Shown one piece after another: positions 37,359 through 39,668 of a stretch of 64,000 bases of DNA. Below the pieces are notes generated by a model that saw nothing but the letters and a program-made list of their open reading frames with translations, had not been told where the DNA came from and ran no database searches. This DNA is from Alphaproteobacteria bacterium (GTDB taxonomy: Bacteria; Pseudomonadota; Alphaproteobacteria; Rickettsiales; SXRF01): positions 1-64,000 of the forward strand of contig JAGVLO010000008.1 in the NCBI GenBank assembly GCA_020049775.1, given 5' to 3'. Every line of letters begins with the position of its first letter. Position 1 is the first letter of the stretch. A program made the position numbers and the translations under genes.

Positions 37359-39668
37359 ATGAAAGAGCCGCCGCCATTTATCAGGCGTAAAACGCCCACC
37401 TACGCATCCGCGCAAATAGCAGCCTATGCCATCTGTAAAGAACCCATTGACCTTGCAGGCCGCAAGCCCATTGAGGGATTTGCCATCGACAGCGCTGATC
37501 CTGACACTCCCATGGACCGCGATGACGCTATCGATATCGAACACAAAACCGACCCCGTACATGGCAAGGTCACAGTACTGCATGTCACGATCGCCGACGT
37601 TGCTTCGTCCTGCCCGCGCGGCGCGCACAGGGAAACTAATGACAAGCTGGCAACGCTGGATAAGGAAGCACATACCAACGGCGAAACATTGTATTTCTCT
37701 TACGGTGTTGCGCCCATGCTGCCGCGCCGCCTACAGGACCGACTGAGTCTGGAGAACGGCAAGGAGCGCCCTGGCGTCACCATTTCCGTAACTTTCAACC
37801 AGAATGCCGATGTGGTGCATACGGAATTCGCGCGCACCGTCATCCGTGCCAAGTGCAAAAGCTATCAGGATGCCGTAAAAGATATCGCCGTCCACGGCAA
37901 CCCGCTGCAACAGCTTTCCGTGCTAGCTAAACATATACTGCAGCAAAAAAGCACCGCCACCGACCTGCCTTATTACGACGCCTCCACCGGTATGTATACC
38001 GACTCGGAAGGTAATACGCGGCACATCAATATTGATGAATTGAACGCCTATATGACCGTGCAGGGCTGCATGATTGCCGCCAATGAAGCATCTTCAGGCA
38101 TCATGCGCGACAGCAATTTCCTGTTCCGTAACCATAGCTACACCGCCAAGCATATTCCGCAATCCATGTTTTACAGTAAAAGCGCACTGGAAGGCTCCGG
38201 CGCAGATGTGCGTAAAGTCATACAGAACAAGGCCGAATACAATCCCGAGTGCAAAGGCCATTACGGACTCAACGCCCGGATGTATTCCCACGTTACCTCA
38301 CCCATCCGCCGTTATGCCGACCTTGTCAACCAGCGCATGATACACTGGTCAATTGATGTGGTGGATGCCGCCGTAGATCAGATTATGGCAGACAAACGCC
38401 ATGCCAGCGACGCATGGGACAGGGAACGTATCGCTCATCATGTCTGGCAACATGCCACACAGTTGCTCGGAGATGCCGCTGAATTCCGCGAAACCCGTGG
38501 CGGCATAAAAAAAGTGGTGGGTAAAAGACTTGAAGAGACCATTGCCGAAATAGCCGATGCCGTACCAGGCGTTGGCCGTGTGACTAGCATTGAAATTGCC
38601 AAAAAGACATTGGCAGCGATTGACGCCATAGAACTCCCCTACAGCAAAAAAGAGCTGACAAATGTTGCCACCGACCTGAACCGCACACTCGAGAAAAACC
38701 GCCTGCAGCGCCGTGAAATCGGCTACAGCGAAACCGAAGCATGGCTCAATGCCGTCTTTCCGGAGACTGACTCTAAGAAATTGTTATCATGGAGTCCGGG
38801 GTCTTTTGCCCGCCTGCTGGAGGCCGCAGCACGGCGAGGAGATAACAACGAAATATTTGCCAAGGAAGTACTCAAGCGGCTGGACAGCCCAAGTGACAAA
38901 GATGCGCTGGTGCAAAACCTGCACACGCTGCTGGTAGTCTCCGAGCGCTACAAAGACGGTCACTGGCAGATGCTGAAAAAACAGGCGTTCCAGCGCATCA
39001 AGAGCGATCCGACACTCGGCGAGAAAGTATTCACCTTCATGCAGGGCAGGCATGAAACCGATACCTACATTCTTGAGGCCACACTTCTGGATGACAACAA
39101 GCAGCCCTACCCCGCCGCACTGGTGGTACTCAGCAATAACGGCGGGGATTATTCAGCGCCGATTATTGATACGGCAGACACACCGGAACATGCGAAACAG
39201 GCAGCCATACTTACTTTTTTCCGACATTACGGCGACCTCTACCACCATGACGCGCTCTACACCCCAAAGCTGATTGATCTTGCGCTGGAGCGCGCACGCG
39301 TCAAACGCGGCAGTCGCTTCGAAACACTCAAGAAAATCTGCGGCGAGAATTTTTCGGTCACCGAGCAATATGAATTTGATGGTGCTGCAGAACATTCTGA
39401 TCATAATGCCAGCATCACGCTTACGGTCGCCAGCAAAGAAACAGGTGAAAAACTTATCAAAACACGCCGCGGACGCCACGAACAGGCACGCGACAAGGCC
39501 GCAAAAGACATACTGGAAGACCGCCGTTTCCACGATATGTTGTCGCAGTGCCATGGCGGCATGCATCTGGATGACGAACGCCTGAAGCCGGGTACGGAAC
39601 TGCCGGAAGCATTATGGGCGCATTCTTCGCGCATCATACAACGCACACAGGACGATCAGCAGCGCTGA
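37359..39668 (+). CDS. RNB-domain (RNase II/R-type) exoribonuclease with unusual C-terminus
   Basis: A predicted 3'-5' exoribonuclease, 769 residues. The RNB core lies at about 35-330: Asp44, Asp53, Asp55 and Asp56 in 'FAIDSADPDTPMDRDDAIDI' supply the metal-binding aspartates (with three extra residues after Asp44 compared with RNase II), and 'YSHVTSPIRRYADLVNQRM' (309-327) is the conserved late motif. There are no N-terminal cold-shock domains: the RNB starts almost at once. No S1 domain is evident. Instead there are helical segments (350-530) and two regions resembling double-stranded-RNA-binding domains: about 535-625, ending 'AKQAAILTFFRHYGDL', and about 655-730, ending 'ARDKAAKDILEDRRFHDML'. 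The architecture differs from RNase II and RNase R. It is alone on its strand. Confidence 0.82.
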   Translation: MKEPPPFIRRKTPTYASAQIAAYAICKEPIDLAGRKPIEGFAIDSADPDTPMDRDDAIDIEHKTDPVHGKVTVLHVTIADVASSCPRGAHRETNDKLATLDKEAHTNGETLYFSYGVAPMLPRRLQDRLSLENGKERPGVTISVTFNQNADVVHTEFARTVIRAKCKSYQDAVKDIAVHGNPLQQLSVLAKHILQQKSTATDLPYYDASTGMYTDSEGNTRHINIDELNAYMTVQGCMIAANEASSGIMRDSNFLFRNHSYTAKHIPQSMFYSKSALEGSGADVRKVIQNKAEYNPECKGHYGLNARMYSHVTSPIRRYADLVNQRMIHWSIDVVDAAVDQIMADKRHASDAWDRERIAHHVWQHATQLLGDAAEFRETRGGIKKVVGKRLEETIAEIADAVPGVGRVTSIEIAKKTLAAIDAIELPYSKKELTNVATDLNRTLEKNRLQRREIGYSETEAWLNAVFPETDSKKLLSWSPGSFARLLEAAARRGDNNEIFAKEVLKRLDSPSDKDALVQNLHTLLVVSERYKDGHWQMLKKQAFQRIKSDPTLGEKVFTFMQGRHETDTYILEATLLDDNKQPYPAALVVLSNNGGDYSAPIIDTADTPEHAKQAAILTFFRHYGDLYHHDALYTPKLIDLALERARVKRGSRFETLKKICGENFSVTEQYEFDGAAEHSDHNASITLTVASKETGEKLIKTRRGRHEQARDKAAKDILEDRRFHDMLSQCHGGMHLDDERLKPGTELPEALWAHSSRIIQRTQDDQQR

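Follow-up and report, generated by a model that had tools for sequence, protein, structure and literature searches.

An RNB-superfamily protein without detected cold-shock or S1 domains carries a helical module and dsRBD-type domains

RNase II and RNase R are the textbook 3′-5′ exonucleases, and their choice of substrate is ascribed to the OB-fold clamps, with the RNB domain itself also contributing in RNase R. The present subject is an RNB gene in a 64,000-nucleotide stretch of DNA, hereafter the window, which comprises positions 1 to 64,000 of the forward strand of the 252 kb contig JAGVLO010000008.1 (genome assembly GCA_020049775.1) from an alphaproteobacterium of the order Rickettsiales. 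By sequence analysis its product is confirmed as a member of the RNase II/RNB superfamily without a detectable cold-shock domain (CSD) or S1 domain and with a helical module and double-stranded RNA-binding domain (dsRBD)-type domains. RNB proteins with few additions have precedents. Excerpts of one paper name D. radiodurans RNase II and Haloferax RNase R as members with minimal accessory domains, and they state that the isolated RNB domain of RNase R unwinds duplexes at reduced efficiency (PMC12320835). An RNB domain joined to a duplex-docking arm is thus mechanistically plausible. In DrII a helix-turn-helix (HTH) domain stands in for both CSDs, according to an excerpt of PMC5758563, and cyanobacterial Zam proteins retain CSD and S1 domains, according to an excerpt of PMC9145284. 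Among the papers listed by full-text searches of PMC, a scope outside which most of the subscription literature lies, none described an RNB-dsRBD protein by title or the start of the abstract. The public proteins seen carry only an RNB or ribonuclease catalytic domain-containing annotation. The RNB-helical-dsRBD layout is apparently undescribed, and it is this layout that is novel here, the RNB family itself being already known.

The window protein scores 151.1 bits with the Pfam RNB model (PF00773; cut-off 29.3), which places it in the superfamily. A preliminary description, made from the sequence alone, held that the catalytic aspartates start at residue 44 and leave no space for CSD1 and CSD2. 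The first catalytic Asp is indeed residue 44 (IDSADPDTPMDRDDA), and a Pfam scan (limit E 10) lists no CSD, S1, or dsrm; nothing beyond RNB passes its cut-off, dsrm included. Because HMMER filters discard most matches with an expectation value (E) above ~0.1, the window protein may still have a very weak dsrm match. Matches to DUF903 and YchF-GTPase_C lie within the RNB domain, score below their cut-offs, and were disregarded. The RNase R encoded elsewhere in the same genome (G000:C14), whose existence the preliminary description had proposed to check, was the positive control and gave Pfam RNB, S1, and CSD2 (CSD2 at 24.9 bits against a curated 26.2). Since the method does see CSD2 and S1 there, their absence from the window protein is no mere blindness on its part, and the earlier claim that S1 is missing holds. 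The NCBIfam models for RNase R and RNase II match the RNB part only, at 130.9 against 597.85 (RNase_R) and 51.3 against 641.9 (RNase_B). The window protein thus has neither the CSD1/CSD2 before the RNB domain nor the S1 after it that mark RNase R and RNase II proper. An N-terminal HTH domain of the DrII type was not found either: 43 residues precede the first catalytic Asp, and AlphaFold predicts a single short helix there (H17-26) at a predicted local distance difference test score (pLDDT) under 50. The open frame is 771 codons long. Its in-frame stop two codons 5′ of the ATG, together with a divergent upstream neighbor (OsmC-like), leaves no room for a hidden N-terminal domain.

The RNB alignment contained 35 rows: 10 from the window family (the window protein and its relatives in the order), 14 from plasmid relatives, and 11 outgroups (10 RNase R-type frames and phage Q54). 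A Paracoccus plasmid match, whose 757-residue frame looks by eye like an ordinary RNase R in its long N-terminus, was used as an outgroup. The four catalytic aspartates, the subsequent Tyr, and the first Arg of TSPIRR are kept in 35/35 rows (10/10 from the window family); we take the identity of these catalytic residues from work on RNase II and RNase R. Compared with the RNase R rows, three additional residues lie between the first and second Asp in nine of the ten window-family rows, the window protein among them. The conserved residues indicate that the window protein is very probably a 3′-to-5′ exoribonuclease.

The C-terminal arm was modeled with AlphaFold, the full-length model being built from four sequences, and the models were compared to PDB chains with VIA-align. 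Helices span residues from about 330 to 560, as expected from the preliminary description, which placed a helical region before two C-terminal segments; the alanine-rich helices said to close both segments are at 612-625 and 710-724. The proposal that these segments are two dsRBD-like modules fared unevenly. The second is firm by fold and PDB matches, and the first is merely probable. Module 2 has the alpha-beta-beta-beta-alpha fold of the dsRBD (PF00035) in the full-length model (H653-661, E665-673, E684-692, E698-705, H707-719; pLDDT 60-84), and when residues 528-736 were folded separately its pLDDT was 67-91 and dsRBDs were matched again. Module 1 shows the same H-E-E-E-H order in the 528-736 model at low confidence (pLDDT 49-64). 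The matches to residues 646-733 include STAU1 (4dkk, Z 8.9, 70 aligned, 3.2 Å), DRB7.2 (8z49, Z 8.7), DCL4 (9kby, Z 8.6, 70 aligned, 1.9 Å), and Aquifex RNase III (2ez6, Z 8.0), and the 528-736 model matches TRBP in 7zpk (Z 9.3, 81 aligned, 2.4 Å); a Z of 8 to 9 taken alone is middling. Eight of the best 50 rows for the full-length model are RNB proteins, and the other 42 all cover the module 2 stretch. By title 34 of these 42, the top 13 among them, are dsRBD molecules; the remaining eight (Z 6.8-7.8) are ribosome entries, including hibernation factors, and T7 Gp1.2. The structure prediction called for earlier thus gave a dsRBD fold in module 2, and S1 or CSD folds were not seen in the C-terminal region, although module 2 matches fill the VIA-align lists, so the lack of other folds there carries no weight. 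These data indicate that module 2 is almost certainly homologous to dsRBDs, and module 1 probably so. The features are collected in Table 1.

Table 1. Positions of the RNB gene and its predicted domains and motifs in the window.
Feature	Residues	Position	Strand	Basis or remark
Gene for the CSD-less RNB/helical/dsRBD-type protein		37359..39668	+	769 aa plus stop
RNB catalytic domain	46-329	37494..38345	+	Pfam PF00773 6.1e-44; genome search 2.5e-44
Catalytic motif ID-SADPDTPM-DRDDA	44-57	37488..37529	+	Alignment with 11 outgroup RNBs
TSPIRR motif	313-318	38295..38312	+	Sequence and RNB alignment
Helical module ("PY ... E..xR")	424-561	38628..39041	+	hhalign against plasmid C-termini 97.4%, E 9.6e-12; 20-row alignment
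Module 1, dsRBD-like (H-E-E-E-H, low confidence)	551-624	39009..39230	+	AlphaFold; collinear with plasmid dsRBD1
Module 2, dsRBD fold	646-733	39294..39557	+	AlphaFold; VIA-align; hhalign to RNase III dsRBDs
Low-confidence tail	734-769	39558..39665	+	pLDDT under 50 for 733-769

The layout was searched for in plasmid and phage collections and in parts of one phylum. CSD-less RNB proteins are among the best plasmid matches of the window protein (tblastn against plasmids). Fifteen plasmid loci were read, chosen from the best matches to span genera rather than randomly, of 121 to 177 matched records; the host genera of the RNB-dsRBD proteins include Acaryochloris, Streptomyces, Rhodococcus, Variovorax, and Pseudomonas. 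Pfam dsrm passes its cut-off in three of the first four proteins scanned, Frondihabitans being the exception, with values of 7e-10 in Acaryochloris, 3.1e-10 in Streptomyces NBC_00239 (three stretches), and 1.8e-7 in Rhodococcus (two stretches). All nine further relatives have RNB and dsrm above cut-off (dsrm up to 9.9e-23), and Pfam (limit E 0.05) lists no CSD or S1 in them. The RNase III model matches the dsRBD part of a Methylorubrum protein (9e-14), and no NCBIfam model reached its cut-off in the eight plasmid proteins scanned. Most of the relatives read open with the RNB domain or start close to it, but in one protein from Acaryochloris about 160 residues come first. On the Frondihabitans sucicola plasmid NZ_AP027733.1 (L129 3898-4251), an RNB gene without a dsRBD overlaps by four bases with a small dsrm open reading frame downstream of it (23.8 bits, cut-off 23), and the pair looks as if the fused layout had been split in two.

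The arms of the two families were then compared as profiles using hhalign. The alignment of the window family (12 rows, leaving out the fragments L021, L044, L045, and L048) with the plasmid family (14 rows) is collinear, spans 277 columns, and scores 98.3% (E 1.3e-14), whereas the reversed control gives 0.2% and five column shuffles at most 0.1%. Against the plasmid C-termini, module 2 alone scores 45.5% and module 3 alone, a third dsRBD-like module that the window protein lacks, 35.7%. In the helical module (20 rows) a PY near the start is almost invariant, and an E and an R, four apart, are invariant; a plasmid-only profile matches this module in the window-family member G027 (E 1.9e-9). 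A dsRBD profile was built from 27 of 30 RNase III loci of relatives, and an S1 control profile from 18 loci. The RNase III dsRBDs match module 2 at 72.8% (E 3.2e-5) and module 3 of other members at 63.2%, the S1 control reaches at most 0.2% (0.1% for module 2), and the helical part scores 0.2% against the dsRBD profile. The common layout of the window and plasmid families is firm, and on these alignments the window family is a divergent member of a wider layout best displayed on plasmids.

The preliminary description had proposed a search for homologs with the same domain order, and besides the plasmid proteins these were found within the order. A C-terminal profile (7 rows) detects the gene, partly as fragments, in 14/343 genomes and 11/134 genera of the order, and this conservation excludes a chance layout. 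Full-length open frames there run from 771 to 947 residues, and among the 11 aligned members long enough to show it, seven have module 3 after module 2. The longest member, G035 (open frame 947), has KK before helix 2 of module 2, unlike most. Across the class the same profile finds 1/385 genomes, the window's own, and a helical-module profile finds 2/372, the window's own, itself a row of the profile, and a weak partial match at E 5.1e-4. The distribution of the gene in the order is patchy. Tallies with a plasmid C-terminal profile (320/398 in the phylum, 192/343 in the order) were discarded as family counts: among the matches listed, nearly all fall on the profile's final dsRBD (positions 220-321 or so), mostly in frames of about 200-400 residues. 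These matches resemble RNase III, and the helical module was therefore searched alone instead. Scans of genome and viral contig collections with the window protein alone gave no relative, and neither did an alignment-based scan of viral contigs. Phage matches cover the RNB part; the one read, Lactococcus phage Q54, has RNB and S1 and no CSD match. In a tree of the 35 RNB rows (midpoint root for drawing only, with a long-branch warning; G335c and G001c, which have no RNB, left out), the window family is one group (100/99), RNase R and phage Q54 form a separate group (100/100), and 12 plasmid rows group together (97/91).

The reading that we favor, and regard as fairly probable, is an RNB exoribonuclease whose OB-fold clamps have been replaced by a helical and two-dsRBD arm that docks structured or duplex RNA or possibly protein. 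The arm would replace the two CSDs and S1. The RNB channel would degrade single strands from the 3′ end, as elsewhere in the family, and the dsRBD arm would dock structured or duplex RNA, or possibly a protein partner in the window branch, near the channel entrance. Docking could then give a substrate choice unlike that of the RNase R found elsewhere in the genome. On balance, we expect the dsRBD arm to serve RNA docking. The dsRNA-contact motifs of dsRBDs are GPxH and KK before helix 2, and all eight RNase III dsRBDs aligned have GPxH or a near variant, together with two basic residues ahead of helix 2. Two consecutive basic residues precede helix 2 in 12/17 plasmid dsRBD copies, a biased sample because the copies were picked by a motif search requiring a GPxH-like motif, and at least one basic residue is found there in four of seven third modules. 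Contact residues are frequent in the plasmid copies and degenerate in the window family, and duplex binding is therefore the likelier for the plasmid branch, where the motifs make it likely. Homology to plasmid proteins whose dsRBDs are canonical makes it plausible that the window protein targets structured or double-stranded RNA; with their degenerate contact residues, the window-family domains may engage duplex RNA in another way or have protein as their ligand.

Several results weigh against the favored reading. In the window family none of the 11 second modules has GPxH, and a pair of consecutive basic residues precedes helix 2 in only two of them (G035, and G323, where an insertion follows). 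Module 2 of the window protein itself has no GPxH and reads RHEQAR, with HE at the position of the basic pair. The net charge of residues 328-769 is -7, although RNase III dsRBDs are near neutral too. Pfam dsrm is listed in just two of 12 window-family members, with a best E of 0.11, well short of confident, and the RNase III dsRBD profile reaches the window-family arm at only 58.3% compared to 98.5% for the plasmid arm. That profile does not recognize module 1 on its own (3.0%), and against the plasmid C-termini the module scores just 3.9%, though it is placed at the first plasmid dsRBD. The full-length AlphaFold model, with its four sequences, has a mean pLDDT of 49, and most of its RNB part is under 50. 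In the tree the plasmid group is not one clade: its rows stand in two places between the window family and the RNase R group, with the two from Acaryochloris attached to the latter at low support (81/58).

The degenerate contact residues bear on an alternative in which the dsRBD folds of the window branch no longer bind dsRNA and act as protein-interaction or dimerization domains that link the exonuclease to a binding partner. TRBP and Staufen contain dsRBDs that work in this way, and the top structural matches include a STAU1 domain-swapped dimer (4dkk), Miranda/Staufen dsRBD5 (5cff), and a Dicer-TRBP interface (4wyq). The absence of GPxH from 11/11 second modules and of a consecutive basic pair from 9/11 fits this alternative, as does an acidic module 1 (net charge -6 over 87 residues). 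However, RNA-bound dsRBDs score similarly (DCL4 with a hairpin, 9kby, Z 8.6; RNase III product complex, 2ez6, Z 8.0; 1di2 with dsRNA, Z 7.8), and GPxH-like and KK motifs are kept in many of the motif-selected plasmid copies. Single basic residues and an RRGRH stretch also still lie near helix 2 of module 2 in the window protein. We consider such a protein-binding arm rather unlikely.

The resemblance of the C-terminal region to dsRBDs could instead reflect a generic alpha-beta-beta-beta-alpha arrangement. Pfam dsrm is not listed for the window protein, and hibernation factors and T7 Gp1.2 match at Z 6.8-7.8 (8/42 rows), as such an origin would allow. This explanation is very improbable, since the arm aligns collinearly (hhalign E 1.3e-14, clean controls) with proteins whose Pfam dsRBDs reach 9.9e-23, the RNase III dsRBD profile matches module 2 at 73% compared to 0.1% for the S1 control, and dsRBD molecules make up 34/42 rows, including the top 13. 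The gene might also be a degenerate RNase R without its N-terminal half (a pseudogene or a mis-called start), in favor of which stands the full-length RNase R that the genome has besides. This is refuted by conservation: the catalytic residues are intact, a stop precedes the ATG by two codons, 11 genera of the order have kept the C-terminal region, and the RNB domains group apart from the RNase R rows, with plasmid relatives mostly starting near RNB too.

Gene flanks were inspected by eye in 11 genomes of the order (12 stretches), and no neighbor is common to all. G001, a genus mate, has the neighbors found in the window; G004 and G009 share neighbors, as do G027 and G049. The Acaryochloris RNB-dsRBD protein has matches covering 95-100% of its length on nine plasmids of two Acaryochloris strains, five in one and four in the other, and a plasmid recA is close to the gene in both Acaryochloris loci read. 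A PAPS-reductase-family gene adjoins the RNB-dsRBD gene on the Pseudomonas VLB120 plasmid and lies one gene upstream of it in Mycolicibacterium aubagnense, and in Streptomyces NBC_01216 an annotated dndC is upstream with three genes between (PAPS-reductase/dndC genes at L136 2115-2915, L133 1060-1902, and L139 1-1089). The Streptomyces NBC_00239 protein has, by eye, the helical and dsRBD unit twice in near-identical copies and then a third dsRBD. On the Rhodococcus pyridinivorans plasmid NZ_CP096039.1 (190984-193719), the match is split in two, and the annotated features include an IS3-family transposase, as if the RNB gene were interrupted.

A natural branch without OB folds and with dsRBDs separates the contributions of the clamp and of the RNB domain to substrate choice, and the layout offers a test of how the RNB channel is fed structured RNA. 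It is possible, and we suggest it tentatively, that an undescribed RNB lineage on plasmids of Actinomycetota, Cyanobacteriota, and Pseudomonadota and in some alphaproteobacterial genomes seizes duplex RNA through its dsRBDs and digests it from the 3′ end. If so, a dsRNA-directed exonuclease pathway would stand beside RNase III, with antisense or overlapping transcripts as examples of its substrates, and large plasmids of several phyla would carry a candidate dsRNA-handling exonuclease that is annotated merely as "RNB domain-containing ribonuclease" or similar.

The closest likeness to the window protein is found in this unnamed family of plasmid "RNB domain-containing ribonuclease" proteins (WP_235112943.1 from Acaryochloris, WP_328973362.1 from Streptomyces, and WP_068685831.1 from Variovorax). 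Like the window protein, they have an RNB domain without detected CSDs, a helical module with the pattern "PY...E..xR," C-terminal dsRBDs, and no S1; they differ in having one to three dsrm stretches over the Pfam cut-off and GPxH-like or KK motifs in many copies, and in being encoded on plasmids, whereas the window is part of a 252 kb contig in a genome assembly. With RNase R and RNase II (TIGR02063, TIGR02062) the window protein has the RNB domain and its aspartates in common, and it lacks their CSD1/CSD2 and S1 as far as detected. Deinococcus radiodurans DrII (PDB 2r7d) is also a CSD-less RNB protein and gives the longest single matched stretch among the PDB matches (40-344), but its N-terminal HTH domain has no counterpart in the window protein. 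DrII also has an S1 domain, and it is not known to carry a dsRBD. The dsRBD of bacterial RNase III (PF00035) resembles module 2 in fold and modules 2 and 3 in profile. In contrast to RNase III, the dsRBD-type domains of the window protein have degenerate RNA-contact motifs and are fused to a predicted exonuclease rather than an endonuclease.

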